Below the pieces are notes generated by a model. The model searched no databases. It had not been told where the DNA came from and saw nothing but the letters and a program-made list of their open reading frames with translations. From IMG/VR virus record IMGVR_UViG_3300025671_012093, positions 1 to 37,602 of that record: a stretch of 37,602 nt of DNA; one strand, 5' to 3'. Origin of the DNA: a virus. Positions 1 to 16,399 of the stretch are shown here, piece by piece. Every line of letters starts with the position of its first letter. Within the stretch, counting starts at the first letter, position 1. The position numbers and the translations under genes were made by a program.

Positions 1-1206
1 CTAGAGGGGTACGGTTTCTGCCTGTACCAATTTTGTACCAATCAGGCTTTGCTCAAGCTTCCCGACTTCGCTCCAGTCTTCACTGGAGTTGATCCATCGG
101 GCGTAAGTCGTCAGCAGCATTTGCACGCTGTGACCGAGCTGATTAGCGATGAACCCAAGGTTCATGCCTGCCATTAAGCACATGGTAGCGTAAGTGTGGC
201 GGCAGTTGTATTGCCGTCTGGCCCTGACCTTCAGCGCGACCAGTGCCGCCTTGAAGTGCTTGTCGGTCACGCTGGCCTGTTGAATGAACTCGAAGTTCTT
301 GGTCGGCGGGAAAACGTAAGACGCCTGTTTGTGCTGGCGCCGGCTCTGTTTCGCCCTCAACTCGGCCACGCTCTTGGCCTCCTCAATCGCATTTAGCGCC
401 CGACTGTTCAGCATGACTCGCCGTGTTTCACGCGTTTTCGTGCGCTCCTCGATCTTGTAGTCAGCGACGATTCTGCACACGTTGGCGACACGCCCCTCCG
501 TATCCACCTCATCCCAGCGCAACGCCGCTATCTCCCCAGGCCGCATGCCGGTATAAAACGCGAACTCAAAGTAGGCCGCGTATACCCGCATTGAACCGGT
601 CAGCACCTCATAAAGGTGCCAGATGATCAAATCCGCCTCCGCTACTGTGAAAGGGTCCACTGGTTTCTTCGCCTTCACAGGCAGTTCAATTGATCCTACC
701 GGGTTCCTGGTGATCAGCTCATCGTTCACCGCGCATTCGAACATCGTATGCAGCCGCTGGATCGCCGATCGTTTTACCGTCGGTGACTTCCAGGGTGTCT
801 CGCCTACGATTTTTCGGATCATTGCCGAACTGATCTGATCTATTGGTAGCAGCGCCAGGTGCGGCATCCAATATAAGGTGAGGGATATCCGGTAGTTTTT
901 CCGAGTGCCCCCCACTACCTCCCGGCTATCGAGCCAGGTCTGGGCGTAACCGCCGAACAGTGGTGTGGCGGAATAGGTGGAGTAGGTGGAATTTGGGAAT
1001 AGCTCGGCGTACCGCTGATCGTCCATCACGCCGTGCTTGATAAGGCTTATTACCGTAGCACGTAGATCGGCTGCTGCTTTAACGCCTTTTGGCGTTTGGG
1101 AATAGGCGAGGGTCTCGCAGCGCCGGAACTTCCATGTGAAGCGAATGCGGACTGACTGGCCTGCGAATTCAACTCCGGCGGGCAATCCCAAAGGCTTTCT
1201 AGCCAT
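1..1206 (-). CDS. int: Phage integrase (tyrosine recombinase)
   Basis: A 401-residue tyrosine recombinase that would integrate and excise the phage genome at att. The N-terminal ~55 residues resemble the arm-site-binding domain of DUF3596-type integrases. A core-binding SAM-like domain spans ~80-170 and the catalytic domain ~185-375. Visible catalytic residues are Arg222 (TGMRPGE), a Lys near 257 (RTKTRE), Arg336-His337 (NCRHTYAT), His359 (QLGHS) and nucleophile Tyr368 (TTYARW). The usual first His of the HxxR box is replaced here (YNCR). The stop codon is the first three bases of the window, so the gene is complete and an att site should lie just to the left. The 5' end overlaps the excisionase-like gene by about 157 bp, a lambda-like int/xis arrangement. 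Family assignment is secure; the att site cannot be seen. Confidence 0.95.
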   Translation of the reverse strand: MARKPLGLPAGVEFAGQSVRIRFTWKFRRCETLAYSQTPKGVKAAADLRATVISLIKHGVMDDQRYAELFPNSTYSTYSATPLFGGYAQTWLDSREVVGGTRKNYRISLTLYWMPHLALLPIDQISSAMIRKIVGETPWKSPTVKRSAIQRLHTMFECAVNDELITRNPVGSIELPVKAKKPVDPFTVAEADLIIWHLYEVLTGSMRVYAAYFEFAFYTGMRPGEIAALRWDEVDTEGRVANVCRIVADYKIEERTKTRETRRVMLNSRALNAIEEAKSVAELRAKQSRRQHKQASYVFPPTKNFEFIQQASVTDKHFKAALVALKVRARRQYNCRHTYATMCLMAGMNLGFIANQLGHSVQMLLTTYARWINSSEDWSEVGKLEQSLIGTKLVQAETVPL

Positions 1207-2172: not shown

Positions 2173-4218
2173 TTATGCGGCACGAGCTTGGCGTTCTTCA
2201 GCGCGCCATGGATCGTTCGCCCGTGCCAGCGCGGCCATCGGTGGCGGGCTGACGCTGTTGCCGCACATGTGAACCTGCTGGGTCTTGGTGAACGACTCGC
2301 CGTCGGCGCCGTGGCTGATGATGTAGTCGGCCGGGAAGCCCTGAGCCTTGTACAGCTCCGTGGGTTTCAGCATCCGCAAGCAGATGTCGACGATCACGTA
2401 TGGCGTGCCTTTCACCATTACGGTGACCATTGCGAGGCGGTCCTTGGTGGTGATGGTCGGCGCGGGCGCATCGCAAGCGCTGATGTTCTCGGTGCCGTAG
2501 TAGCTGATCAGAAACGCAGCGACCCGCAGGGCGCCGGCTTCGTGTTCCGGTGACAGGGTGAGCGACACCAAAGAACTCTTGCCGCCGCCACCGGCGGTGA
2601 TGGTCGGCGCGGGTTCTTCCAGACCCTGGCCAACACTGCCGCCGAATGCCCGCTCCATGAATGCGCTGACCAGCCCGTGGTGCTGGCCGCCGGCGCTGAC
2701 GGTGTGCAGCGGGTCGTTCAAGTCGCGCGCATCACAGTTGCCGCGCAAGTGGACCAGGTTTGCCGCCACCAGCTGCTGCTGGCTGCCGGTGTTGGTCACC
2801 GTGGTCATCGGGTCTTCAATGCTCTTGGCGTCGGTGGTGTTGAAGCCGCCATTCATCTGGGCCATGAACACCGTGGAGATGCCCATGGCGTGAGCGGCAC
2901 CGGCCGGGCGCTGATAGTTGCCGCCGCTGGTGATGGTCGGCAATGGCTCGTCCAGCGCCTTGCCCGCGTCATCGAAACGGAACTTCACCAGGTGCGCCGC
3001 TGCGATCGCGCGGTGACTGCGAGTCATGAGCGTGCCGACTGGCTTATCCGCTGCTACCGGGTGCCCGGCGTAGACCGGGCCGCCGGCCCCAACCATCACA
3101 GGGCTGATCAGTGTCAGCTCGCCACGGTTTGCGCAGGTCACCGTCGGCAGCGGCTCAAGCGGGTCATTGATGCGGTCGCTGCCCTGGTGTGTTGCCGGGG
3201 CAATGATCGGGCTGACCACCGAGAAGGCGCCGCCCTTTGGGTAGGAGGTGATTGTGCGCAGCGGCTCGCCGGCCGACTGTACTGTCTCTCCCGACCAGTT
3301 GGCGATCGGCACAATGAACGGGGCCGCGCTGTCGATAACGAACTTCTTCATGCCCTTGGCTACGCGGCGCAGGGTGGCCGGGGCTAGGTCTTTCTTGCGG
3401 CCGAAGATGCTTTTGCCAAGGTCGCTGAAATCGATGCAGTCAGCGGCGGTCTTCCACTTCTGCTGGCCTTTGACCGGGTTCTTCGCGTGAGTTGGCTCAG
3501 GCCACACGATCGGCTGACCGTCGCACCGGGCGATCATGAACAGTCTTTCCCGGCTGGTTGGCGCGCCGAAGTCGCACGCCCTGATCACCTTCCACTCAAC
3601 GACGTAGCCCATGCCTTCCAGCAGGGCTACGAAACGGCGCCAGGTGCGTCCGCGTTGCTTCGGGTCTGGAATCAGGAACTGCTGGCCCACAGGCACAACC
3701 TCACCAGGTGCAGCAATCCCGCCACTGAGCTTCACCACGCGACCGGTGGCCTTGTCGCGCTTGGCGATCAGTCGGCCCCACTGGAGTATCTGCTTCACGT
3801 TCTCCAGGCTGATCACGCGGGGCCGTTTCATACCCGCCCACTTCAAGCCGATCCACGACAGGTTGCGGATCTCGCGCTTGCGCGGCTGGCCGCCGGCCGC
3901 CTGGCTGTGATGGGTGCAGTCCGGCGACATGTGGAACCAGCCGACCGCGCGGCCGCCGCACTCGGTATCCGGATCACCCTCGAACACGTCGGTGGTGAAG
4001 TGTTGGGCGCCTGGGTGGTTCATGGTGTGCATGCTGATGGCCTGAGGGCTGTGATTCTTCGCCACATTCACCGCACGGCCCAGGCCCATCTCCAGGCCGG
4101 TACCGGCGCCGCCACCACCGCAGAAGAAGTCGACAACGATCTCATCGTCCTGAGGGTTGAAGCCGAGTCCATATTGGGTTTTGAAATCGAAGGGGTGTTT
4201 CTTCTGTTGTGCGGACAT
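2173..4218 (-). CDS. dcm: C5-cytosine DNA methyltransferase with repeated central region
   Basis: 681 residues, long for the family. Motif I (DFFCGGGGAGTG, ~30-41) binds SAM. Motif IV holds the catalytic Cys101 in SPDCTHHS. Motif VI is ENVKQ (139-143), motif VIII is SRERLFMIA (222-230), and motif X is GNSVSPP (653-659). Between VIII and X, where the target-recognition domain lies, about eight degenerate copies of a D/E-P-L-P-T-I-T-x(5-9)-L-V unit fill ~315-600. The enzyme would methylate cytosines in phage and host DNA, probably as protection from restriction; no cognate endonuclease is adjacent. It starts 43 bp after the DGR reverse transcriptase stop and is likely co-transcribed with it. 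The enzyme class is secure; the sequence specificity is unknown. Confidence 0.95.
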   Translation of the reverse strand: MSAQQKKHPFDFKTQYGLGFNPQDDEIVVDFFCGGGGAGTGLEMGLGRAVNVAKNHSPQAISMHTMNHPGAQHFTTDVFEGDPDTECGGRAVGWFHMSPDCTHHSQAAGGQPRKREIRNLSWIGLKWAGMKRPRVISLENVKQILQWGRLIAKRDKATGRVVKLSGGIAAPGEVVPVGQQFLIPDPKQRGRTWRRFVALLEGMGYVVEWKVIRACDFGAPTSRERLFMIARCDGQPIVWPEPTHAKNPVKGQQKWKTAADCIDFSDLGKSIFGRKKDLAPATLRRVAKGMKKFVIDSAAPFIVPIANWSGETVQSAGEPLRTITSYPKGGAFSVVSPIIAPATHQGSDRINDPLEPLPTVTCANRGELTLISPVMVGAGGPVYAGHPVAADKPVGTLMTRSHRAIAAAHLVKFRFDDAGKALDEPLPTITSGGNYQRPAGAAHAMGISTVFMAQMNGGFNTTDAKSIEDPMTTVTNTGSQQQLVAANLVHLRGNCDARDLNDPLHTVSAGGQHHGLVSAFMERAFGGSVGQGLEEPAPTITAGGGGKSSLVSLTLSPEHEAGALRVAAFLISYYGTENISACDAPAPTITTKDRLAMVTVMVKGTPYVIVDICLRMLKPTELYKAQGFPADYIISHGADGESFTKTQQVHMCGNSVSPPPMAALARANDPWRAEERQARAA

Positions 4219-4261: not shown

Positions 4262-5419
4262 CTATTTCTTCTGGTAGGTCTTGGTCAGCGCCGCGTTGAC
4301 GCTGTTGCCGCGCTTCAGCACGACCCGAGCGAGTGCTGCCCGGTCGTTATGGCTATGGCTGGCCTGGCTGAGCAGGCCGAAGTAGCTGTTGGCGGTCTCA
4401 CGAAGATCCTCGGCCGGTGCCTCGGCTGTTCGCTTCAGCGCCTGGGCAAGCGACCGCTTGCGAGTTGAGCGCCGCCAAGGCTTGATCACATGCCCAACGA
4501 AGTCGACGCCGCGGTCCACGGGCTGCAGGATCGTCTTGGTCGGGTTCAGTTTGGCGCCGAGCCTGGGCAGGAACGCTTCGACCTCGGCCAACCACTGATT
4601 GAGCTGCTGTGGCGACTCGTGCAGGAATACGAAGTCATCCACGTAGCGAATGTAGTGCTTGGCGCGCAGCGTGTGCTTGGCGAACTGGTCCAGGGCGTCG
4701 AGGTAGACGTTGGCGAAGAACTGCGACGACAGGTTGCCGATCGGCAGGCCGAGGCGCGCGGGCTGCGCAACCAGGCGCTTGTGCTGCGGCACCCGGTTGA
4801 ACAGGTGCGCGGGGCTGCGGGTCTCGTAATCCTCGCGAGGGTCGTGCATGAGGATCTGCGTGGCCAGTGCCAACCACCAGGGTTCGGTGATCCTGGCTTC
4901 CAGCTGCTTGCGCAGCACCGCCTTGTCGATGGCGACGAAGAAGTTGGCCAGGTCGCACTTCAGGTAGAAGATCGGCTTCGACCAGTTCTCGCTGGCGCTG
5001 CGGATCTTCGACTCAAGGCGCTTGGCTGCGTAAAGCGTGCCGCGCCCTGGAATGCATGCGCAACTGTCCGCTATGAAGCTGGCGTAGAAGCGCGGTGCCA
5101 CATGGTTGTACAGCAGGTGGTGGACGACACGGTCCCGAAAGGCTGCCGCCCATACCTCGCGGGCTTTTGGTCGGGTGACCACGAAACAGATGGATCGGCC
5201 TGGCCGGTAAGTGCCGGCAATCAGGTCGTCGTGCAGCTCCAGCAAGTTGATCTCCATGTCCTTCTCGAACAGCCGGGCACTTGCGGAGTTCCGCTTGTTG
5301 CGTCGGCAGTCGTAGTAAGCCTGGACGAGATCCTCGAACTGGAAGGGGGCAACACTTAAATCTGCGGACAGGGCGCGCGAGCCGCTCGTTGTTCTTGTCG
5401 TTGTTGTTGAGCCAGCCAT
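4262..5419 (-). CDS. drt: DGR reverse transcriptase
   Basis: About 385 residues of a retroelement reverse transcriptase. The first catalytic Asp lies in YLKCDLANFF (~156). Motif 4 reads GLPIGNLSSQ (~224-233), with the SQ ending typical of DGR enzymes rather than the SP of group II intron or retron enzymes. The active site is YVDDF (~259-263), followed by the GxxLNPxKT motif. There is no maturase or endonuclease domain. It would copy the template RNA with adenine-specific errors and deliver the cDNA to the variable repeats. The start is uncertain: the only ATG (5419) and a TTG (5425) both lie inside the template repeat, neither has a clear ribosome site, and no conventional start exists between the TR and the conserved core. 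Avd, TR and three targets lie upstream. Confidence 0.93.
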   Translation of the reverse strand: MAGSTTTTRTTSGSRALSADLSVAPFQFEDLVQAYYDCRRNKRNSASARLFEKDMEINLLELHDDLIAGTYRPGRSICFVVTRPKAREVWAAAFRDRVVHHLLYNHVAPRFYASFIADSCACIPGRGTLYAAKRLESKIRSASENWSKPIFYLKCDLANFFVAIDKAVLRKQLEARITEPWWLALATQILMHDPREDYETRSPAHLFNRVPQHKRLVAQPARLGLPIGNLSSQFFANVYLDALDQFAKHTLRAKHYIRYVDDFVFLHESPQQLNQWLAEVEAFLPRLGAKLNPTKTILQPVDRGVDFVGHVIKPWRRSTRKRSLAQALKRTAEAPAEDLRETANSYFGLLSQASHSHNDRAALARVVLKRGNSVNAALTKTYQKK

Positions 5420-5462
5420 CTTCAAAGTCCATGTTGTAGGCGTTGTTGGCGGAGCGCTGCGA
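5359..5462 (-). repeat. DGR template repeat (TR)
   Basis: About 103 bp that match all three variable repeats without gaps. Read leftward, it is packed with AAC codons (Asn), the usual TR design that lets A-to-N changes sample many residues but not stops. Its conceptual translation includes SANNAY, DFEDGW and NNNDKNNER, yet no target gene contains it. It lies between avd and the reverse transcriptase and overlaps the 5' end of the RT reading frame. Every mismatch to the three VRs within the core falls on a TR adenine (33 of 33). The 3' 25 bp (GAGCGGCTCGCGCGCCC onward) are GC-rich and invariant, as expected for the cDNA-priming side. Confidence 0.95.
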
Positions 5463-5632
5463 CCTGTCGAGCTATCTACATCGCCAAACCGAAGGCGGCG
5501 CCGATCAGCTTGGAAACTGCGCCAGACCTACGCGGACGCTTTAGACCGGCGGTATCTGTTTTTGCGCATGGCGGTGACCCAGAGGTCAGCGGCTCGACCA
5601 GATTTAGCGCACAGGCAAGAGGGCCTTGACCC

Positions 5633-5986
5633 TCAAGCAGCGGGCGCGGCTGCGGATTTCTTCCAGGCGTTGGCCTGGCGGCCTATTGAGGCCGTCATCA
5701 TCATTGCTTTGGCGTGCTGCCCCTTGCTGATCAACCCTCGGTTGGTGAGGGCGCGCAGCAGGTAGTTGAGCATCCAAATGCTTTCGAGCAGGAGGTTGAT
5801 GTGGGGCAGCTTGTCCCGGGTCATATTGGCCCGGCCGATCAGTACCAGGACCTGTAGGCACTCGTCACGGATTTTTGCCCCGACAACCTGTTTCAGGTCG
5901 CGCGGGATATTGCGCACCAGGTCAAGCGAAAGCCCGAGCAACTCCTCGGCCACCTTGTGGATTTCCAAATCCGTATGCAGCGCCAT
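5633..5986 (-). CDS. avd: DGR accessory variability determinant (Avd), four-helix bundle
   Basis: 117 residues, all helical, with four helices separated by short turns (about 5-20, 28-48, 55-82 and 88-112). The sequence fits the Avd/four-helix-bundle family found with DGR reverse transcriptases, including the IRDECLQVLVLIGRAN and ESIWMLNYLLRAL segments and a basic surface. Avd-family proteins form pentamers that bind the RT and template RNA and are needed for mutagenic retrohoming. The start was chosen at 5986 because GGGAGG precedes it by 6 nt; an upstream in-frame ATG (6025) lacks a site. It lies between target 1 and the TR, the common target-avd-TR-RT order. The call is strong given context. 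Confidence 0.88.
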   Translation of the reverse strand: MALHTDLEIHKVAEELLGLSLDLVRNIPRDLKQVVGAKIRDECLQVLVLIGRANMTRDKLPHINLLLESIWMLNYLLRALTNRGLISKGQHAKAMMMTASIGRQANAWKKSAAAPAA

Positions 5987-6007
5987 CCCTGGCCTCCCAA
6001 AAAGCAA

Positions 6008-6023
6008 GGGCGCTATCGCGCCC
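6008..6023 (-). repeat. GATA-tetraloop hairpin downstream of VR1
   Basis: On the leftward strand the sequence is GGGCGC-GATA-GCGCCC, a perfect 6-bp GC stem with a four-base loop, about 33 bp past the end of VR1. Short GC-rich hairpins with GRNA-type tetraloops just downstream of the VR are known target-recognition elements in the Bordetella phage DGR. The TR has no such hairpin after it, as expected. It overlaps the region upstream of avd and could also affect avd translation. Confidence 0.6.
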
Positions 6024-6043
6024 ATGAATGAAGAATTGAATGA

Positions 6044-6637
6044 TCAAATAAACTTTCTGCGGACAGGGCGCGCGAGCCGCTCGTCGCTCTTGCCGAGGCT
6101 GATGAGCCAGCCACCTACAAAGTCCATGAGGTAGGCGTCGTTGGCGGAGCGCTGCGAGCTGGTCCAGTGGTACGCCTGGGTGAAAACATCCGGCACGGTG
6201 ATTTCGAGGAAGTAAGCCTCGCGCCGAGCCATGAGGTAGAAGTCCTTGTGCCCATCACGCTCGAAGGCTGCACAGAACTGGGCGGCAGGGTGGTCGTGCT
6301 CCCGGTTGCTGCTAGCGAGGTAAGCGGTGTTCGCCTGGCCGTCCCATGGTGATTTGGCGCCGCCAAGTTCTTCGCCGTAGCCACCCCACTCATGGGTCGC
6401 CTCTGCATCGCTTCCGGTCGGCACAATCAGGTAGTAGGGCTTTTCGCCGCCAGGGAACAGGCCGCCGTTCACACCGCCCTCACCGGGCCAGTATTCGCCG
6501 ATGGCTGGGATGCCGCTTGCCGCAATAGCCGGCGCGGCGGTGATAGCCAGCGTTGCCAGCTTCAGCACTACAGCTTCATCCGGGCTGCTGATCATCAGAT
6601 CGCCGCGGGTGTAGGTTGTCAGTTGATTTGCTTGCAT
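6044..6637 (-). CDS. DGR target protein 1 (C-type-lectin/DUF1566-like, VR1)
   Basis: 197 residues. The first ~45 residues include a hydrophobic Ala-rich stretch (~24-45) without a clear signal-peptide cleavage site. The rest is a formylglycine-like/C-type-lectin fold region resembling DUF1566, with IGEYWPGEGG, DGQANT and DGHKDFYLMA blocks. The C-terminal ~35 residues are encoded by VR1, ending ERLARPVRRKFI. Residues read from template adenines have changed (for example SANDAYLMDFVGGW against a TR-encoded SANNAYNMDFEDGW) while the scaffold is fixed. The start follows AGGAG at 6 nt. It is homologous to targets 2 and 3 over most of its length. The role is presumably ligand binding, with diversity in the binding surface. 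It is not next to tail genes, so its location on a virion or host cell is unknown. Confidence 0.9.
   Translation of the reverse strand: MQANQLTTYTRGDLMISSPDEAVVLKLATLAITAAPAIAASGIPAIGEYWPGEGGVNGGLFPGGEKPYYLIVPTGSDAEATHEWGGYGEELGGAKSPWDGQANTAYLASSNREHDHPAAQFCAAFERDGHKDFYLMARREAYFLEITVPDVFTQAYHWTSSQRSANDAYLMDFVGGWLISLGKSDERLARPVRRKFI
6056..6157 (-). repeat. DGR variable repeat 1 (VR1)
   Basis: 102 bp aligned without gaps to TR 5361-5462. There are 12 differences, every one at a position that is A in the template strand. It encodes the C-terminus of target 1, and the stop codon lies 12 bp beyond its end. The GC-rich 3' segment is identical to TR, consistent with an initiation-of-mutagenic-homing site. 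Confidence 0.95.
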
Positions 6638-6665
6638 GGGATGCTCCTGTGAGCGAGATAAGGGT

Positions 6666-6735
6666 GCAGGTAGCCGGCGCTTCCCGACGAGCTTCTGGTC
6701 TGAGCGCCGTCCTGGCGCTCCCGGGAATCACCTGC
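6666..6735 (-). repeat. Three-tier inverted repeat between targets 2 and 1
   Basis: Nested pairings: 6666-6671 with 6730-6735 (GCAGGT/ACCTGC), 6681-6686 with 6722-6727 (TTCCCG/CGGGAA), and a perfect 7-bp stem 6702-6708 with 6714-6720 (GAGCGCC/GGCGCTC, 5-nt loop). It lies in the leader of target 1 and about 54 bp downstream of VR2. It could therefore be an mRNA leader structure, a VR2-associated target hairpin, or both. Confidence 0.55.
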
Positions 6736-6757
6736 GAAAAATCAATGAAGAAATGAA

Positions 6758-7234
6758 TTACTGAATAGGGAGGCTGCGGACAGGGCGCGCGAGCCGCTCG
6801 AGGGTCTTGCCGCTGTCGCCGAGCCAGCCATCTCCAAAGTCCAGGCCGTAGGCGTAGTTGGCGGAGCGCTGCGTGCTCAGCCAGTGATAGCGATCATCGC
6901 GAAGTTCCACCAGGCCATCAGCCTTGGCTGCCATCAGCAGTTGGCCTTCGAGGCAGGACGGAATAAAGCCGTCCAGTTCCAGCGCTTTTACGGCGATCTC
7001 GCTGCCGGCCTCGGCCATGGCGCGGGTGTTCGCTTCTCCGTCGCTGTAGCTGCCGGCGCCTTCGATCTTTACGCCATACTCGCCCCAGACACCGTTGAGC
7101 TCGTCAGGCAGAAGGATCAGGGCGCGCTCTGCGCCGTTAAGCCAGTAGCGGGTTACGAACACACCGCCGGCCAGAGGTTGGCCGCGCTCAGGGAGTTCGG
7201 CGGCGAGTACTGTTTGCTGTGCTTGCTTGGTCAT
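6758..7234 (-). CDS. DGR target protein 2 (C-type-lectin-like, VR2)
   Basis: 158 residues, shorter at the N-terminus than target 1. It shares the G-E-YG, DGEANT and RYHW-S-QRSAN blocks with its paralogues, then the VR2-encoded end (YAYGLDFGDGWLGDSGKT, then ERLARPVR). The final residues SLPIQ differ from the other two targets. The start is the ATG at 7234 behind CGGAG. The middle (LEGQLLMAAKADGLVEL) is the most divergent part, so this paralogue has drifted outside the repeat as well as inside it. The likely job is the same displayed-ligand role as target 1. Confidence 0.88.
   Translation of the reverse strand: MTKQAQQTVLAAELPERGQPLAGGVFVTRYWLNGAERALILLPDELNGVWGEYGVKIEGAGSYSDGEANTRAMAEAGSEIAVKALELDGFIPSCLEGQLLMAAKADGLVELRDDRYHWLSTQRSANYAYGLDFGDGWLGDSGKTLERLARPVRSLPIQ
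6774..6873 (-). repeat. DGR variable repeat 2 (VR2)
   Basis: 100 bp aligned without gaps to TR 5362-5461, with 13 differences, all at template adenines. This is the most diversified of the three. The sequence just past its stop (CAGTAATTCATT) is shared with VR3 but absent after VR1 and the TR. Confidence 0.95.
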
Positions 7235-7291
7235 GGGTTTGCTCCGGGTAAGCGCCGCCCTCCGGGTTCCGGATGCAGCGTGTAGGGTTGG

Positions 7292-7657
7292 TTAAGCGGG
7301 TGTTTCGATTTCGTCTTCAGGCTCTGGCGGGTCGTCGACAAGCGACTTCAGGCCCGCCGCCCGGATTAGCCGCGACACCTTTTCGGTAACGTCAAAAGGT
7401 GTCGTGACACACTTGAGCATCTGCGCCGCGGTTTCGAAGTCGGCAGCGATCACGTTGCGCAGCAGGGTCTGATGCACCTCCTGCTGGTTGTTGAAGCCGT
7501 GCTGCTTCATCAGGCGCTTGAGGTCCTTCTTGAAGATGCCTGCAACCTCAATCGTAAATTTCTCGACGCCCAATGCTGCGTCCTTCGCCGCTGCCTTCTC
7601 GCGCTTGCGGCGCTGCTTCAGCGCTTCCGCCGTCGGTTGCTGCTCTTCCTCGGCCAT
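7292..7657 (-). CDS. Hypothetical protein, basic and helical
   Basis: 121 residues. A highly charged N-terminal helix (KQRRKREKAAAKDAALG, ~14-30) is followed by a compact helical region with NNQQEVHQTLLRNVIAADFETAAQML (~55-82) and an acidic Pro-rich tail (DDPPEPEDEIETPA). The middle part is compatible with a small DNA- or RNA-binding helical fold, but I do not recognise a family. GAGG precedes the start. It stands between target 2 and a translationally coupled pair of unknowns, so it may be DGR cargo or ordinary early-region filler. Confidence 0.65.
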   Translation of the reverse strand: MAEEEQQPTAEALKQRRKREKAAAKDAALGVEKFTIEVAGIFKKDLKRLMKQHGFNNQQEVHQTLLRNVIAADFETAAQMLKCVTTPFDVTEKVSRLIRAAGLKSLVDDPPEPEDEIETPA

Positions 7658-7738
7658 GGCCTACCTCTTCGATTCCACTTGCCTGGATTGCCAGCCATGC
7701 AGGCCGGCGCCGCGCGGCGGTGATCTTGCTGATGCGCC

Positions 7739-8053
7739 TCATGGGGTGTCGGCGAACTTGAAGCCGTTCTCCTGGGCGATCAGCATCACGCGCTTGATGT
7801 GCATGCCCAGGTTCTTTGCTGCCACGCTGGCTACGACGCCCTTGGCGGCCTCGGCGCGTACCGACGGTGCCAGCTTGTCACGCTGGGCACGCAGGCGTTC
7901 GTGGTGAGCGGTGGTGCCATTGAAAGGACCATCAGCGCTGACGCCGCTCGGGATGACCTGGGCGGTCTTGCCCGCGCCGAAGTAGGCATCAATCTGGCGG
8001 TTGAGGTCGGCGATTACCGCGTCTTTCGGGTTGTCCATCGGTACGCCGATCAT
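7739..8053 (-). CDS. Hypothetical protein with possible HTH C-terminus
   Basis: 104 residues. The start ATG overlaps the stop of the upstream gene (ATGA), so translation is probably coupled. The C-terminal ~40 residues (GVVASVAAKNLGMHIKRVMLIAQENGFKFAD) have the spacing of a helix-turn-helix. The N-terminal part has NRQIDAYFGAGKT and a Gly/Ser-rich linker, then a basic helix. An alternative internal start (8038) would remove five residues. No family is recognised. Confidence 0.6.
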   Translation of the reverse strand: MIGVPMDNPKDAVIADLNRQIDAYFGAGKTAQVIPSGVSADGPFNGTTAHHERLRAQRDKLAPSVRAEAAKGVVASVAAKNLGMHIKRVMLIAQENGFKFADTP

Positions 8054-8331
8054 TGCGCGCCGCCTGACAGCGTCACCTTCACGCCGTCGGCCCGAGATTC
8101 CAACTCCTGGGCAAAGTTGCTGGCATCCTTCCAGGTCCAGCGGAAGCCCTTTACCTTACCGGTGGCGATCTCCACGATGTGGTAAGCCTTGCCGGCGGTG
8201 CGGATCTGAAAGCGAATCTTCTGCACTGGCGCCTCCTTGCCGATCAGGGCGTAGAACTCGGCGGTCGCGATGCGGGAGCGCACGTGCAGGGCCGCAACCC
8301 CGTCTACGCGCTGTTGAATTGATGCGTGCAT
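8050..8331 (-). CDS. Hypothetical protein
   Basis: 93 residues, mixed beta/alpha, with a central KIRFQIRTAGKAYHIVEIATGKVKGF strand-rich block and a WTWKDASNFAQELE helix. GAGG lies before the ATG. It is the first gene after the strong hairpin terminator at 8432-8460, and a 12-bp perfect inverted repeat (8361-8416) lies in its leader. The gene is coupled to the next one through ATGA. The function is unknown. Confidence 0.62.
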   Translation of the reverse strand: MHASIQQRVDGVAALHVRSRIATAEFYALIGKEAPVQKIRFQIRTAGKAYHIVEIATGKVKGFRWTWKDASNFAQELESRADGVKVTLSGGAQ

Positions 8332-8360
8332 GGTGGATACCTCAGTGGGTTGCGTGTATT

Positions 8361-8416
8361 CGTCAGCACCCTGACCGCCTGGTCTGTGCCGGTGGGCCCA
8401 GGGGAGGGTGCTGACG
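8361..8416 (-). repeat. Perfect 12-bp inverted repeat in a gene leader
   Basis: 8361-8372 pairs perfectly with 8405-8416 (CGTCAGCACCCT / AGGGTGCTGACG). An inner CCTGG/CCAGG pairing lies inside the 32-nt loop region. It sits between the terminator at 8432-8460 and the start at 8331, so in leftward RNA it would be a stable leader hairpin. Confidence 0.6.
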
Positions 8417-8431
8417 GGTAAACGCGAGATG

Positions 8432-8460
8432 AAAAAAAGCCCAGTAGGGACTGGGCTTTT
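8432..8460. terminator. Bidirectional rho-independent terminator
   Basis: AGCCCAGT-AGGG-ACTGGGCT forms a perfect 8-bp stem with a 4-nt loop, flanked by A7 on one side and T4 on the other. It can therefore end leftward transcripts (U-run of seven) and rightward ones. It separates target 3 from the genes 8331-7292. Leftward transcription must pass it by antitermination, or restart. Confidence 0.85.
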
Positions 8461-8595
8461 CGTTGCGTTACATAGACCTCCCTATGTCACGCAGGGGGTG
8501 GCGGTCGAGCGCCTGGGTTTGTTGTTTACATGGCTGCCAATCCTCCGTTCTAGGTGGGTTGAAATGCAGGTGGCCGGCGCGCGCCGGGTGTTCGT

Positions 8596-8721
8596 CCGCA
8601 TCGGATATAGCTCGAATCCCTCCGAGTGTTGTCCGTCTACGCCGCGACAAGATCCGCTCAGGCTCGGGACAAGGTGGCCACCCTGCTATCACGACAGAGT
8701 GCCGAGCTATATCCGATGCGG
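8596..8721. repeat. 126-bp element closed by a perfect 19-bp inverted repeat
   Basis: 8596-8614 (CCGCATCGGATATAGCTCG) is the exact reverse complement of 8703-8721. The 88-nt interior has further pairings on the leftward strand: GGTGGCCACC, TTGTCC with GGACAA, and GCG with CGC. No direct target-site duplication is obvious at its ends and no open frame is convincing. It could be a structured RNA, a small inverted-repeat element, or a cruciform linked to VR3, which ends about 96 bp away. The rest of 8461-8806 holds no gene I can support; a 15-bp palindrome (ACGACAGGCTGTCGT) lies at 8757-8771. Confidence 0.7.
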
Positions 8722-8806
8722 CCTGGTCTGGGGAGTACCAGGGCCTCGGGCAGTTAACGACAGGCTGTCGTGGCGCTGGTTGTTCGAAAAAAATTGAAGG
8801 AATGAA

Positions 8807-9295
8807 TTACTGAAGGAATCTGCGGACAGGGCGCGCGAGCCGCTCGCTGCTCTTGTCGTCGTCGTTGAGCCAGCCATCGTCAAAGTCCATGCTGTAGGCG
8901 TAGTCGGCGGAGCGCTGCGTTGACGACAGGTAGTACCACTCCTCGCTGAACGACTCGGGAGCGAACTGCCAGGCGTGATGCAACTCGCCAATGGAAGGCA
9001 GATAGAAGTCGGTATGCCCGTCGGCGGTGTACGCGGTGACTGCGATCGCGGCGGGGTGCTTGCCGTCTCGACTGATCAGGATCTCGGTATTGGCACGGCC
9101 ATCGGTTCGGCTCAATGCATCGACATCCACGCCGTAATCGCCGTATTCGTGACGACCAGGTACATCCTGGGCTGCGTAGATGATGTGGCAGAGACCTTCT
9201 GGATACTGGCGAATCCCACCGTAGATGCCGCCCTGACCAGGCCATACAGCGCCTATTTCAGGGATGGTGATTTGTTGTTGCGCTGCTGTTTGCAT
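8807..9295 (-). CDS. DGR target protein 3 (C-type-lectin/DUF1566-like, VR3)
   Basis: 162 residues from the ATG at 9295, which has GAGGA 6-7 nt upstream; two earlier in-frame ATGs (9331, 9319) lack sites. It is the closest paralogue of target 1: IPEIGAVWPGQGG, YGDYG, DGRANT, HPAA and DGHTDFYLPS blocks precede the VR3-encoded end (ADYAYSMDFDDGWLNDDDKS then ERLARPVRRFLQ). No signal peptide or membrane helix is seen. VR3 is the repeat closest to the template (8 changes), so this gene may have been retargeted most recently. A conserved hairpin leader shared with the TerB-like gene lies directly upstream. Confidence 0.9.
   Translation of the reverse strand: MQTAAQQQITIPEIGAVWPGQGGIYGGIRQYPEGLCHIIYAAQDVPGRHEYGDYGVDVDALSRTDGRANTEILISRDGKHPAAIAVTAYTADGHTDFYLPSIGELHHAWQFAPESFSEEWYYLSSTQRSADYAYSMDFDDGWLNDDDKSSERLARPVRRFLQ
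8817..8919 (-). repeat. DGR variable repeat 3 (VR3)
   Basis: 103 bp aligned without gaps to TR 5359-5461, with 8 differences, all at template adenines. The match extends two bases further at the 3' side than in VR1. Together with VR2 it shares the post-stop sequence CAGTAATTCATT. Confidence 0.95.
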
Positions 9296-9314: not shown

Positions 9315-9360
9315 GTCATCCCGCTGCCCACTCATTGAATGGGCAGAAGTGATGCTTTAC
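9315..9360 (-). promoter_or_regulatory. Conserved hairpin leader, copy B (before target 3)
   Basis: In leftward RNA: AAAGCATCACTT, stem CTGCCCA, loop, stem TGGGCAG, then CGGGATG. The same layout occurs at 9811-9857 with a different but still complementary stem. It ends about 20 nt before the start of target 3 and overlaps the last codon of the TerB-like gene. Confidence 0.6.
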
Positions 9361-9791
9361 AGGTGGTCTTTCAGATTCAGCCCCAGCAGCTTGGCGCTGC
9401 GCTCGAGGGCGGTCAGCTCGGCCGGTTCGATCTCGCCGTCGGCCTCGGCCACTGTGAGCATCACGTTGAGTACGGTCAGCGCTTCGGCCGGGGAGTGAGC
9501 CAGGTCGCCCAGCTCTTTCTCGGCGTTCTGCCGCAGGATGCGAGCCCCTGACTTGAAGTCGGTTTTGGCGCGGTCGATGGTGTTGGACAGCTCAGCGCCG
9601 AAGCCCTGGAGCGCTGGGTTGTTGCTCAGGATGGTCTCGATCTTCGACAGCTCGCTCTCTTCCAGGTCGCCGTCTGCGGCCGCAACGTAGATGCTGCCGT
9701 ACACAACCGCTTCCATCAGGTCGCGGTTTGCCAGCTTGGCGACTGCCGCACGGGCCTGGCCGGATTTCTTGCCGAACAATTTGCCTAACAT
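9357..9791 (-). CDS. TerB-like (tellurite-resistance TerB family) protein
   Basis: 144 residues starting MLGKLFGKKSG at 9791, behind AGAGGAA. An in-frame extension to 10325 is rejected because it runs through the PL/operator region. The helical domain (~25-140) has the two acidic repeats typical of TerB: VAAADGDLEESELSKIE (~37-53) and VAEADGEIEPAELTALE (~111-127), which bind divalent metal in the family. The basic N-terminus is common in phage-borne forms. It is the first gene of the leftward PL transcript. TerB proteins are linked to stress and phage defence, but the role in this phage is unknown. Confidence 0.85.
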   Translation of the reverse strand: MLGKLFGKKSGQARAAVAKLANRDLMEAVVYGSIYVAAADGDLEESELSKIETILSNNPALQGFGAELSNTIDRAKTDFKSGARILRQNAEKELGDLAHSPAEALTVLNVMLTVAEADGEIEPAELTALERSAKLLGLNLKDHL

Positions 9792-10089: not shown

Positions 10090-10144
10090 CAAGTCGGCTT
10101 GCATTTATAAAAGCATGCTTGTGTATTGAATGCAAGCACGCTTG
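10090..10144. promoter_or_regulatory. OL: three repressor operators
   Basis: Three copies of a 12-bp palindrome with consensus CAAGCATGCTTG: 10090-10101 (CAAGTCGGCTTG), 10110-10121 (AAAGCATGCTTG) and 10133-10144 (CAAGCACGCTTG). The last two are spaced 23 bp apart, exactly as in OR. The expected ligands are the CI-like repressor (11417-10566) and Cro. Confidence 0.82.
10104..10135 (-). promoter_or_regulatory. Leftward early promoter PL
   Basis: On the minus strand, -35 TTGCAT (10135-10130), 17-bp spacer, -10 TTTTAT (10112-10107), with TATAAA overlapping at 10109-10104. One operator overlaps the -35 and one fills the spacer, so repressor binding would block it. The layout mirrors PR. Confidence 0.6.
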
Positions 10145-10565: not shown

Positions 10566-11417
10566 TCAGGCTTTTCTGGCATTCCAAATCAGCAAAACCT
10601 TCGCGTGGATTGTCACGTCGTCGATCCTGGCCTGCTGGTCCTTGTGCTTCTCATTGTCAGAGATCAGCCAAAAATGATCCTCGTCGGACATCTGCAGGCG
10701 CTTGATGTAGAGCAGGCCGTGCCAGGTGATCACATAGATCCCATCACCGATGAACTCATTCACTCCACGGTCAACAATGACAGGATCCTTGTCATTGATC
10801 GTGCCTTCCATGCTCTGACCCCAGCCAGTAATCACGGCGAGGGCGTTCAAAGTGGTGAATGTCACACCCTTCTCTCGCAACACGTCCTCACGCACGATCA
10901 GGTTGCGGACCGTCTCGCTGTAATCTGGCGGTACCTGGCCATGGCCCATGGCGGCACGGATGTCGTATTGAGGAATCAGAACCTCGTCGGCCCTGGCGCG
11001 AAGGCCTGAAAAATCCGCAGGGATGACATTGCCAGACTTTACTTCGTTGGCCGTTTCAGCAACGGCTTCTGCGATCTTCTGCTTTGCGGCATCAGACAGA
11101 TTCTTCCCGTGCTTCGCCAGCATCTGCTGAACGATGTCGGCCGATGACTTTCCAGAATCCTCGGCAGATCGGGTTGGAGTCATGCGACGCGGCGGCTCGC
11201 CTTTCCCACTCAGCAGCCAGTCGACTGTCGTGTCGTAGCCGTCGGCGATCGCCTTCAAATTCTCATTCTTGATGTTGCCTGTATCACCAGCAAACCACTG
11301 GCGCACAGCCTCGTAGCTGACCCCGCAAGTGGTCGCTATGTCGCGCTTGAACCCGCGCGCGCCGACCTCTGGCTTGCGAGCACGGACGAGGGCAGTAATT
11401 CGATCAGTAATTTTCAT
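10566..11417 (-). CDS. cI: CI-type repressor (HTH + S24 peptidase)
   Basis: 283 residues. The N-terminal Cro/CI helix-turn-helix spans ~20-65 (KRDIATTCGVSYEAVRQWFAG). A charged linker with SADIVQQMLAKHGKNLSDAA covers ~85-135. The C-terminal S24/LexA-like domain covers ~150-275 with Ser202 in GWGQSMEGT and Lys239 in LLYIKR as the catalytic pair. It should keep PL and PR off in the lysogen and be inactivated through RecA-stimulated self-cleavage; the cleavage segment is probably AAMGHG (~155-160). There is no strong Shine-Dalgarno, as is common for repressors made from PRM. It is divergent from cro across OR. Confidence 0.93.
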   Translation of the reverse strand: MKITDRITALVRARKPEVGARGFKRDIATTCGVSYEAVRQWFAGDTGNIKNENLKAIADGYDTTVDWLLSGKGEPPRRMTPTRSAEDSGKSSADIVQQMLAKHGKNLSDAAKQKIAEAVAETANEVKSGNVIPADFSGLRARADEVLIPQYDIRAAMGHGQVPPDYSETVRNLIVREDVLREKGVTFTTLNALAVITGWGQSMEGTINDKDPVIVDRGVNEFIGDGIYVITWHGLLYIKRLQMSDEDHFWLISDNEKHKDQQARIDDVTIHAKVLLIWNARKA

Positions 11418-11429
11418 GCGAGCAATCTA

Positions 11430-11477
11430 CAAGTTAGCTTGGCAAGCATGCTTGCTTAGTAAACACAAGCATGCTTG
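11430..11477. promoter_or_regulatory. OR: three repressor operators
   Basis: 11430-11441 (CAAGTTAGCTTG), 11443-11454 and 11466-11477 (both CAAGCATGCTTG, perfect palindromes). They fill the 88-bp gap between cI and cro. The degenerate copy is nearest cI and the two perfect copies lie nearest cro. Confidence 0.88.
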
Positions 11478-11505: not shown

Positions 11506-11685
11506 ATGAACCGTGCCGACGCTATCAATTATTTCAAAGGGATTGCTCCCTTGGCCAAAGCGCTCGGAATCACATACGAGGCGGTCCGGCAGTGGGGCGA
11601 TGAAATTCCTCAGCTCCGCCAGTACCAGCTTGAGCTGGTGACCAACGGCCAGTTGAAGGCCGACAAAAAACAATCCGCTGCATAG
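11506..11685 (+). CDS. cro: Cro-like regulator
   Basis: 59 residues, with AAGGAG 7 nt before the ATG. It is a small helix-turn-helix protein of the YdaS/Cro type: PLAKALGITYEAVRQWG (~14-30) is the HTH, and the last residues are basic. It is the first gene from PR, divergent to cI. The recognition helix VSYEAVRQW of CI and ITYEAVRQW here are nearly the same, consistent with both reading the CAAGCATGCTTG operator. It would repress cI synthesis and tune early transcription. Confidence 0.88.
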   Translation: MNRADAINYFKGIAPLAKALGITYEAVRQWGDEIPQLRQYQLELVTNGQLKADKKQSAA

Positions 11686-12261: not shown

Positions 12262-12963
12262 ATGAACACGATTGTTGCTCCAAGCAATACCGTCACCATG
12301 TCGAGCCGGGAGATTGCTGAGCTCACCGGTAAGCAGCACAAGAACGTCCTTAGGGATGTGAACGTGATGCTTGAGTCGCTCGAAAAGGCTGGCTCAGATC
12401 TGAGCCAGGCAGTTCGATACACCGACGAGCGCGGCCGCACCTCGGAAGTTCGTCTAGATCGCGTCCTGACCGAGACCTTGCTTACCGGCTACAGCATCCC
12501 TCTTCGTCATCGTGTCGTGACACGATTGCAGGAACTAGAAAAGGTGTCGCGACACTCCATGTCGCTGCCTACCAACTTCGCCGAAGCTCTCCAGCTCGCC
12601 GCCGATCAGGCCAAGCAGAACGCCTCTCTGCACCAGGTCATCCAGCAGCAGGCGCCCAAGGTTCAAGCCCTGGAGCGCCTGTCCGGTACCCACGGCTCGA
12701 TCTGCATCACCACGGCTGCCAAGCAACTCGGCATAGGCCCTCTCAAACTCTTCAAGTGGCTCAGCGACAACCGCTGGATCTATCGCCGCGCCGCGTTCTC
12801 GGCCTGGTCTGCGTACCAACCCCGCCTCACCGCCGGCCTGCTCGAGCACAAGCTGGTCAAGGTAGGCAAGGGCTCCGAGGAAGATCTCAAGGTGGTCGAG
12901 CAGGTCATGGTCACCCGCAAAGGCATCACCCATCTCGCAACAGTCCTTCAGGAGGCTTTGTAA
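12262..12963 (+). CDS. Phage antirepressor (Rha + KilAC domains)
   Basis: 233 residues. The N-terminal Rha-type domain covers ~10-95 (MSSREIAELTGKQHKNVLRDV, then TGYSIPLRHRVVTRLQELE). A Gln-rich helical linker follows (~105-140), then the KilAC/ANT domain (~145-230) with ITTAAKQLGIGPLKLFKWLSDNRWIYRR. Such proteins bind DNA or repressors and relieve repression. It begins after a terminator and its TAA overlaps the next start (TAATG), so it is translationally linked to the replication gene. Confidence 0.9.
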   Translation: MNTIVAPSNTVTMSSREIAELTGKQHKNVLRDVNVMLESLEKAGSDLSQAVRYTDERGRTSEVRLDRVLTETLLTGYSIPLRHRVVTRLQELEKVSRHSMSLPTNFAEALQLAADQAKQNASLHQVIQQQAPKVQALERLSGTHGSICITTAAKQLGIGPLKLFKWLSDNRWIYRRAAFSAWSAYQPRLTAGLLEHKLVKVGKGSEEDLKVVEQVMVTRKGITHLATVLQEAL

Positions 12964-14691: not shown

Positions 14692-15119
14692 AACAGTTCA
14701 GCCCGAAGGCCTTCAGCGTCAAGCCGGTGCGCGCCAAGGCAGTTGACCGGGAGGGCCTGGAGCAGGCCGCGCTGATGAAAGAGATCAGCCTGCGCTACCC
14801 GGTCGCTGCCAAGTTGATCTACCACGTCCCGAACGGTGGTCACCGGCACAAGCTGGTGGCGATCAAGCTGAAAGAGCAGGGCGTCAAGGCCGGCGTGCCT
14901 GACCTGGTGCTGCCGATGGCCCGCGGCGGGTACTTCGGGCTGTACATCGAATTCAAGGCCCGGGCGCCGTATGACGCCGCCGTCTCCCCGGCCCAGGACG
15001 CATACCTGCAGGCGCTGACCGATCAGGGTTACCTGGCCATCGTCTGCCGAGGGCACTTCGACGCCATTGAGGCGATCCGGGCCTATCTCCTTCAACCTCA
15101 AACCAGGGCTGCCGCATGA
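14688..15119 (+). CDS. VRR-NUC domain nuclease
   Basis: 143 residues, starting at a TTG that overlaps the previous stop (TTGA). The fold matches VRR-NUC, a restriction-like nuclease: Glu near 28, the HVPNGG motif (~46-51), then G-V-PDLVLP (Asp73) and the YIEFKA strand (Glu89, Lys91) as the PD-ExK active site. The C-terminus (YLAIVCRGHFDAIEAI) completes the core. It probably acts as a Holliday-junction or flap nuclease in the place lambdoid phages use for RusA/NinG. Confidence 0.9.
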   Translation: MKQFSPKAFSVKPVRAKAVDREGLEQAALMKEISLRYPVAAKLIYHVPNGGHRHKLVAIKLKEQGVKAGVPDLVLPMARGGYFGLYIEFKARAPYDAAVSPAQDAYLQALTDQGYLAIVCRGHFDAIEAIRAYLLQPQTRAAA

Positions 15120-16399
15120 CTCAACCCAAGACATTAACCGTGACTCTCTCTGATGCCGAGATTCGCCGCCATGCGGCCAGCGAGGTGCGCGACCTTCGGG
15201 ACGCCCGCCAACCTGCGTTCAGGTTTCGGTACAAAAAGGACCGCACGAAAGGGTCTTGGTACCTGGTCGTGAGTAGCGCGTGGAACAAGATCGCGAATTT
15301 CCCCGACCTGAATACCAAACAAATGCTAACGGCCCTGCCGGCGGTACGTGCTCGCTTGGTCGCCGAGCCTGAGGCAGGCACGGCGATAGGGACCTGGGCG
15401 ACGGTCGGTCAGCTGCTTGAATGGTTCGACGATCGCATGGGCCGCGACCGTAACCTGTCCTCCAAACGCAAGACCACTGCGCGATCGGTGATGAGCAAGC
15501 ATCTTCGCCCGCGCCTTGGCGACCTCCTGCTGTCCGGCGTGAACAAGTCCGAGATCGACCAGCGATTGATGTGGCCACTGCAGGCTGAGCTGTCTCTTGA
15601 ATACCTGCGCCTGATCTTTCGATTGCTGGTGTTGGCGTTTCGCCAGGCGGCACGTCTCGGGCTGATCCAGACGAACCCCATGAATGCGATCCGGTTCAGC
15701 GACTTCTCCAAAACAAAAATCAAGCCCAAGGCCGCGCGTCTGCGTGACGTCCAGGTGGAGGAGGTACTGGCGGGTCTGGCGACCAAGTTCAACTCGGCTC
15801 CGGCTGATGCAATGTTGGCGTTGATGATGCTGTGCCATGGCTCGCGCGCCGGCGAAACGCGGATGGCTGAATGGTCTGATTTCAGTTTCGAAGAGCGCCA
15901 GTGGCATATCCCGGCTGAGCACACCAAGACCCGGTGCCAGTTGACCCTTCCTCTTACCCTTCAGGTATGTGCGTTGCTGAAGCGATATCACGCGGCTCAG
16001 GCGGCCACTGGTTACCAGGGCAAGTACCTATTCCCTTCCCGTGGCGGCAAGCCACTGACCGACAGCCAGGCATGTGCCGTGTTTACCCGCTTGGCAGGAG
16101 GCGAGTGGACAAGCCATGACCTGCGCAAGGTTGCCAGAACAGGCTGGGTGGATCTGGGAGTGGACTTCCTCATTGGCGAGCTACTGCTTAACCACGCGAT
16201 GGGTCACAACGTGCAGGCATACATCCACACGTGGGTAGAGGCAGGCAAGCGAGAGGCGCTGGAGAAGTGGCATGAATGGTTAGACGGGCGTGGGTTTGTC
16301 GCGATCCACACCATTGCAGAGCCATTATGCGAAGTTTCCCGCATTCCGGTGGAGGCCACGAATTGCGCGGCCTCTAGCCAAATCAACGACAAACCATAG
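15116..16399 (+). CDS. Second tyrosine recombinase in the replication region
   Basis: 427 residues, overlapping the VRR-NUC gene by ATGA. An N-terminal arm-type domain (~10-60, FRFRYKKDRTKGSWYLVV) is followed by a core-binding domain (~95-195) and a complete catalytic domain: Arg244 (GSRAGE), Lys271 (HTKTR), His334-Arg337 (SHDLRK), His360 and Tyr369. All catalytic residues are present, so it should be active. It is unrelated in detail to the integrase at 1-1206, is oriented with the early-right operon, and has no att-like flank. Possible roles are dimer resolution, recombination or a past second integration module. Confidence 0.88.
   Translation: MTQPKTLTVTLSDAEIRRHAASEVRDLRDARQPAFRFRYKKDRTKGSWYLVVSSAWNKIANFPDLNTKQMLTALPAVRARLVAEPEAGTAIGTWATVGQLLEWFDDRMGRDRNLSSKRKTTARSVMSKHLRPRLGDLLLSGVNKSEIDQRLMWPLQAELSLEYLRLIFRLLVLAFRQAARLGLIQTNPMNAIRFSDFSKTKIKPKAARLRDVQVEEVLAGLATKFNSAPADAMLALMMLCHGSRAGETRMAEWSDFSFEERQWHIPAEHTKTRCQLTLPLTLQVCALLKRYHAAQAATGYQGKYLFPSRGGKPLTDSQACAVFTRLAGGEWTSHDLRKVARTGWVDLGVDFLIGELLLNHAMGHNVQAYIHTWVEAGKREALEKWHEWLDGRGFVAIHTIAEPLCEVSRIPVEATNCAASSQINDKP

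Follow-up and report, generated by a model that had tools for sequence, protein, structure and literature searches.

Diversity-generating retroelements (DGRs) of the type described in phage BPP-1 (brt, avd, template repeat and mtd) consist of a DGR-family reverse transcriptase (RT), the accessory protein Avd and a template repeat (TR) that is paired, with adenine-specific changes, to a variable repeat (VR) at the 3' end of a lectin-fold target gene, which encodes the tail-fibre tip. A global survey found the DGR targets of viral clades to be mostly tail proteins and left other viral targets unexplained (PMC8144416). The DiGReF survey of 2012 attributed two-VR DGRs in Pseudomonas and Burkholderiales to gene duplication and was unable to link them to prophages (PMC3521204), and a single announcement on Burkholderia phage Magia put forward its DGR as a possible means of setting host range (PMC7883833). 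Here we analyse IMG/VR virus record IMGVR_UViG_3300025671_012093 (37,602 nucleotides; hereafter the window), one complete virus record of a lambda-like temperate Pseudomonas phage, which carries a complete DGR with three C-type-lectin-fold targets, T1, T2 and T3, in the interval between the integrase gene (int) and cI. The targets fall into two lineages, termed L-type and S-type. We propose, as a tentative reading that falls somewhat short of probable, that this DGR diversifies a pair of early, intracellular binders that would act on variable factors of the host or of rival phages, most likely in counter-defence. In the open-access papers that were searched, no account was found of the location in the early-left (PL) operon, of the L/S pair or of captured alleles in phages without a DGR.

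The window DGR shares with the BPP-1 type the DGR-family RT, Avd, the adenine-specific TR/VR pairs, the position of the VR at the 3' end of a lectin-fold target and, in T1, a hairpin after the VR. Unlike the tail-fibre tip of BPP-1, its targets are short stand-alone genes of the early-left region, usually an L+S pair and sometimes with a remote copy. With the multi-VR DGRs of DiGReF (PMC3521204; Pseudomonas fluorescens WH6 with 2 VRs, Ralstonia, Burkholderia) it has in common 2-4 paralogous targets per TR and their ongoing independent diversification, whereas here the locus is assigned to the PL operon of a phage, and its two targets represent separate lineages, each conserved. Magia shares the RT family (65% identity), the early-left position and short lectin-fold targets (PMC7883833), but for its targets the L and S models give about equal scores. 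In the window, the genes for TerL, an HK97-type capsid, the tape measure and a gpJ-like tail tip lie on the plus strand, and the early-left operon on the minus strand contains, within the int-cI interval, the DGR RT, TR, Avd and all three targets. The elements of the DGR are as follows (ORF, open reading frame; AF2, AlphaFold2; pLDDT, its predicted local distance difference test score; HMM, hidden Markov model).

4262 to 5425 (mechanical ORF), minus strand: DGR reverse transcriptase (RVT_1, E 2e-16; phrog_1423, E 1e-116); start probably near 5374
5362 to 5461, minus strand: template repeat, from TR/VR alignment; matches the VR 3' end exactly
5460 to 5649, minus strand: RT-15 RNA, the upstream part of the DGR RNA, just upstream of TR (Rfam RF03018, 172 bits, E 7e-42)
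5633 to 6025, minus strand: Avd accessory protein (PF22296 bAvd, E 1e-13, above cut-off; phrog_3206, E 1e-28); start probably 5986
6008 to 6023, minus strand: GC-rich hairpin with a GATA loop downstream of the T1 VR, a DGR target hairpin or terminator
6044 to 6637, minus strand: target T1, L-type, ORF of 197 aa (AF2 pLDDT 91; Lcl C-terminal domain as best solved match)
6057 to 6156, minus strand: VR of T1 (differs from TR at 12 positions, each a TR adenine)
6758 to 7234, minus strand: target T2, S-type, ORF of 158 aa (S clade support 0.946; AF2 pLDDT 80)
6774 to 6873, minus strand: VR of T2 (differs from TR at 13 positions, each a TR adenine)
8807 to 9295, minus strand: target T3, L-type, remote copy, ORF of 162 aa from the ATG at 9295 (L-type by HMM, 234 versus 114 bits)
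8820 to 8919, minus strand: VR of T3 (differs from TR at 8 positions, each a TR adenine)

Alignment of the one TR with the three VRs, 100 nt each, places all of the mismatches (33/33 over 300 aligned positions) opposite TR adenines, which make up 28 of the 100 TR positions. The 26-nt 3' end of the VR occurs in four exact copies in the window (0 expected from shuffles); no copy lies in the window tail genes, and the gpJ-like tail tip has no VR. A DGR-type RT, adenine-only TR/VR pairs and Avd are thus all present. The window RT aligns to BPP-1 brt, and its homologues align only from residue 18 of the mechanical ORF, which is the basis for the later start near 5374. Hairpins with a GRNA loop have been reported after the VR of phage DGRs (PMC3240598). 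Over the related loci described below, a hairpin with a 4-nt loop and at least 6 pairs follows 105 of 262 VRs, compared with 3 of 262 in shuffles; we rejected a GRNA-loop hairpin after every VR as a general rule, the commonest loop being CTTG.

The original prediction of three small C-type-lectin-like paralogues as DGR targets is confirmed by their ORFs of 158-197 aa, by their adenine-only VR mismatches and by a common match to phrog_4245, a family of unknown function (T1, E 2e-28; T2, E 6e-23; T3, E 3e-33). T3 is 46% identical to T1 and 39% to T2, and would be 174 aa long if read from an upstream GTG instead of the ATG at 9295. In the AF2 model of T1 (pLDDT 91), residues 7-33 form a small beta-beta-alpha module and residues ~42-197 a C-type lectin fold, whereas the T2 model (pLDDT 80) has low confidence across the VR part. 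The nearest solved fold to T1 is the C-terminal domain of Legionella Lcl (profile E 1.5e-8; Foldseek E 2e-4), with a Z-score of 12.8 and a root-mean-square deviation of 3.0 over 116 residues; that domain differs in being part of a surface adhesin, in its 18% identity and in having no DGR role in that structure. In Pfam, none of the targets reaches the gathering cut-off of DUF1566/Lcl_C (PF07603; 34.9 bits), with T3 at 24.9 bits (E 2.7e-5), T1 at 12.6 bits and no match for T2, although 42 of 71 relatives match it at E<1e-3. Of the sequence blocks taken to be common to all three (IP-IG--WPG and others), T2 lacks the WPG block and reads GQPLAGG. The expected multiplication of the gene before its diversification is ancient, but it left two paired lineages (L and S) and not merely three copies, T2 being an old separate lineage in the target tree.

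For a wider comparison, 160 loci with RT and target were collected from scans of viral and bacterial contigs and from named phages. They are kin, and counts over them are not counts of independent events, a point that weighs against our reading together with those gathered further below. On one strand, the order in these loci is cI, (remote target), target, target, Avd, TR, RT, int. Specifically, targets lie between cI and RT, and RT before int, in 25 of the 26 loci with both markers seen; CI shares the RT strand in 80 of 81 loci, and structural genes are on the strand opposite to the cassette in all 10 loci where they were detected. The same module occurs across tail types, in the siphophages Haboob and Cruim01 and in the myophage Magia. 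The claim that the targets stand alone outside the tail module is thereby borne out: with 158-197 aa, an int-cI location far from the tail genes and the opposite strand, they show none of the marks of an Mtd-like tail-fibre target (place in the tail module, fibre or trimerisation domains). Each locus has one to three targets, and 153 of the 160 have two or three.

Diversification appears to be under way in nature, because target genes with identical scaffolds differ by up to 26 VR nucleotides. In a set of 304 distinct TR/VR pairs, changes affect 44.6% of A, 0.3% of C, 0.6% of G and 0.8% of T, and VR divergence exceeds scaffold divergence nine-fold. In some close pairs the scaffolds have 0 nucleotide differences and the VRs 12-26, which is indirect evidence that DGRs of the window type may undergo mutagenic retrohoming. 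The scaffolds are under purifying selection (dN/dS 0.09-0.17), and VR changes between close pairs comprise 462 nonsynonymous versus 50 synonymous ones.

A tree of 316 targets sets the S clade (T2-like, support 0.946) apart from the L-type, to which T1 and T3 belong. Nearly every Pseudomonas cassette consists of one L-type and one S-type gene in either order, and L+S is found in 115 of the 131 two-target cassettes typed at both positions (68 LS, 47 SL). LL and SS cassettes come from non-Pseudomonas loci, bar one metagenome-assembled genome, and phage Magia is likewise non-Pseudomonas; among betaproteobacteria the L/S split is not meaningful, 'L' being a catch-all there. Gene position tracks ancestry, with 36 changes on the target tree versus 133 after shuffling. 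The pair is also present in the RT-less phages Medea1, Aurca01 and U9. We infer that L and S are two lineages selected to remain together, and they possibly form a complex.

Targets are retained without RT in D3, PMG1, U9, Medea1, Aurca01 and nine jumbo phages. D3 orf68 and PA5oct EST35_0104 are S-type members of the target family that differ from the window targets in having no DGR, in their annotation as 'hypothetical protein' and in being fixed alleles. The S-type gene is directly beside cI in D3 and PMG1. In the D3 record (NC_002484.2, 5983-6543), orf68 has a frame shift inside the VR, compared with read-through in the PMG1 and phi_D3 records, which is either a sequencing error or a real mutation. 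Downstream of their targets, Medea1 and Aurca01 retain only 73 codons from the C-terminal part of RT, with a stop codon, which indicates DGR loss. The nine jumbo phages, all Wroclawvirus, have one S-type gene each, and a search of all nine for RT and tyrosine integrase found neither. Their VRs form four allotypes that are near-constant within and ~20% different between them, while the scaffolds drift evenly; in PA5oct the gene sits inside the terminal repeat. Against the Haboob TR, the PA5oct VR mismatches at 15 of 31 A and 1 of 59 non-A positions, D14O and FBPa42 have 0 non-A mismatches, and the scaffolds of all three differ from Haboob's by 4-9%. The simplest reading would be that DGR-made alleles were acquired by DGR-less phages and then frozen.

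The position of the targets relative to the putative repressor operators bears on when they would be expressed. The relevant features of the window are as follows.

1 to 1206, minus strand: integrase, an ORF at the distal end of the left operon, assigned by inspecting sequence and position (downstream of RT, same strand)
10090 to 10144, no strand: OL-like cluster of three CI-type CAAGCNNGCTTG operators (0-1 mismatch) between cI and the first target, upstream of TerB-T3, from a palindrome search
10566 to 11417, minus strand: CI-like repressor (phrog_4, E 1e-41)
11430 to 11477, no strand: OR-like cluster of three CAAGCNNGCTTG operators between cI and cro, from a palindrome search
11506 to 11685, plus strand: Cro (PF14549 P22_Cro, E 4e-23)
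33997 to 37602, plus strand: gpJ-like tail tip (FNIII-A_GpJ, Phage_Tail_Tip and Phage-tail_3 matches), truncated by the window end

Allowing one mismatch, the palindrome occurs seven times in the window against 2.5 expected, and six of the seven form two clusters of three that bracket cI. Judged from sequence, this arrangement is the OR/OL layout of lambda. Because the OL-like cluster is upstream of all three targets, these would be expected to be transcribed from PL and to stay off in the lysogen, barring any internal promoters; a sigma-70 promoter scan found sites no more numerous than in shuffles. By default, we take the targets to be repressed in the lysogen and probably expressed early in infection or after induction. 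Two relatives (L209 and L251) have the identical operator at both places, and three others (L179, L232 and L241) have similar ones upstream of all targets.

Taken together, we propose that the DGR would randomise residues on the binding face of small lectin-fold proteins that belong to a CI-controlled PL operon, outside the virion gene set. An S-type and an L-type binder, in the window phage also the second L-type T3, would be co-produced early after infection or induction and would probably act intracellularly, on a host factor that varies from strain to strain, most likely a defence or restriction component, or alternatively on a component of a rival phage. Variants would arise from mutagenic retrohoming, selection would retain those that bind, and useful alleles could outlast the DGR and pass to DGR-less phages. 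The parts of this scheme that we infer are when the proteins are expressed, their location inside the cell, the association of L with S and a purpose in counter-defence. Counter-defence would also fit the gene company in D3, whose left region encodes a Lar-like restriction-alleviation protein. A bolder version is possible but doubtful: an 'antibody-like' counter-defence, in which a heterotypic early intracellular lectin-fold pair would be affinity-matured by the DGR in temperate phages, and alleles captured by DGR-less phages, including virulent jumbo phages, would neutralise variable proteins of the host or of rival phages.

Several points weigh against the proposed early intracellular pair. 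Neither the targets nor their small neighbours match a known defence or anti-defence family, so that counter-defence rests on position and variability. In PADLOC, T1-T3 and Avd have no match and the window RT matches generic RT models only. As a statistic, the operator search over relatives is weak and suggestive, with 15 loci versus 8 control clusters. The L/S pair is not obligatory, the jumbo phages having S only and PAN70 L only. The same lectin fold also terminates tail fibres in other phages, and one locus (L228), the sole such case, has tail J/K/L-like genes within a few kb of an intact L+S+Avd+RT cassette, the two being on opposite strands. The N-termini of L-type proteins include a hydrophobic helix (T1, Kyte-Doolittle 1.91 at residue 22), which might serve for export. 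Additionally, PA5oct is able to persist in a carrier state (PMC6950013), which makes a role of its target beyond the lytic cycle possible.

The alternative that survives best, and is still unlikely, was raised by the original prediction: the targets would be made in the lysogen from promoters of their own, as an exclusion or defence set that binds incoming phages or rivals. Lysogeny accessory genes are often located in the int-cI intervals of temperate phages, the PMG1 record has an annotated promoter in the gap separating cI from the S-type gene, and several VR alleles are held simultaneously, as in a repertoire; the carrier state of PA5oct and possible internal promoters also leave room for it. 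Production in the lysogen is nonetheless disfavoured by the CI-type operators between cI and the first target and by the S-type genes that jumbo phages keep without integrase or RT, and neither a PADLOC match nor, in S-type or T3, a clear membrane anchor was found.

A role in the virion is less likely again. L and S, though encoded early, would be loaded on the tail (for example on gpJ), with the DGR tuning receptor binding as in BPP-1; the best-known phage DGR targets are indeed receptor-binding tail proteins (PMC8144416), other phages carry the same fold at their tail-fibre ends, and host range was the proposal of the Magia authors (PMC7883833). However, the module recurs in siphophages, in the myophage Magia and in jumbo phages unrelated to them; in every case it lies on the strand opposite to the structural operon and never within it, even where tail genes are near (L228). 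The targets have no fibre, trimerisation or chaperone partner, and the window phage has its own VR-less gpJ.

We consider it improbable that the targets are exported or surface lectins that alter the infected cell surface by adhesion or receptor masking. The hydrophobic L-type helix and the nearest solved fold, a secreted or surface adhesin domain in Legionella Lcl, would suit this role, but the T1 model places the helix within the beta-beta-alpha module, window T2 and T3 have no signal-like segment, and a lipobox-like pattern occurs in only 2 of 442 sequences. A selfish cassette with dispensable targets as mere VR carriers, to which the movement of the cassette between phages and the variable target number (1-3) might point, is very improbable given scaffolds under purifying selection, targets intact after RT loss and L/S pairing kept across gene orders.

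Under the preferred reading of diversified early binders, a whole phage DGR lineage diversifies early-operon proteins, unlike the viral targets of known or predicted role, which are mostly tail proteins. If the binders are intracellular, phages would possess a means of directed evolution for proteins of host takeover or counter-defence, and ligands could be sought with the fixed alleles of D3-like and jumbo phages as ready baits. Because already mutated targets recur in other viruses, including giant ones without DGR machinery, the data suggest that the target family is an evolvable tool for handling the host cell interior. Close relatives exist in tractable laboratory phages, namely D3 in PAO1, and Haboob and Cruim01 with an intact DGR.

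Further features were observed around the DGR. A phrog_5439 protein (window 7292-7657, minus strand) immediately precedes a target in 47 of its 63 occurrences across related loci, and may therefore be part of the module. A TerB-like gene (9357-9788, minus strand) is the first gene past OL and is followed by T3; a link between TerB and the remote target was dropped, since among related loci TerB is directly before a target in the window phage only. The non-coding stretch after T3 (8425-8735, minus strand) has a far better fold than shuffles (z -3.6), centred on 19-nt inverted repeats CCGCATCGGATATAGCTCG, and terminates in a terminator-like hairpin, with no Rfam match. A C5 cytosine methyltransferase (2173-4218, minus strand) has 'PTxT-GG' segments repeated between its motifs. 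A second integrase-like gene is located right of cro (15116-16399, plus strand) and is named 'integrase' in SC_8_H2H8; two integrase matches are also seen in many related viral records. Finally, two separate early genes (7371-7410 and 12512-12551) have in common palindromic stretches GTGTCGYGACAC flanked by AAAAGGTGTCG, which are possibly sites of another regulator.

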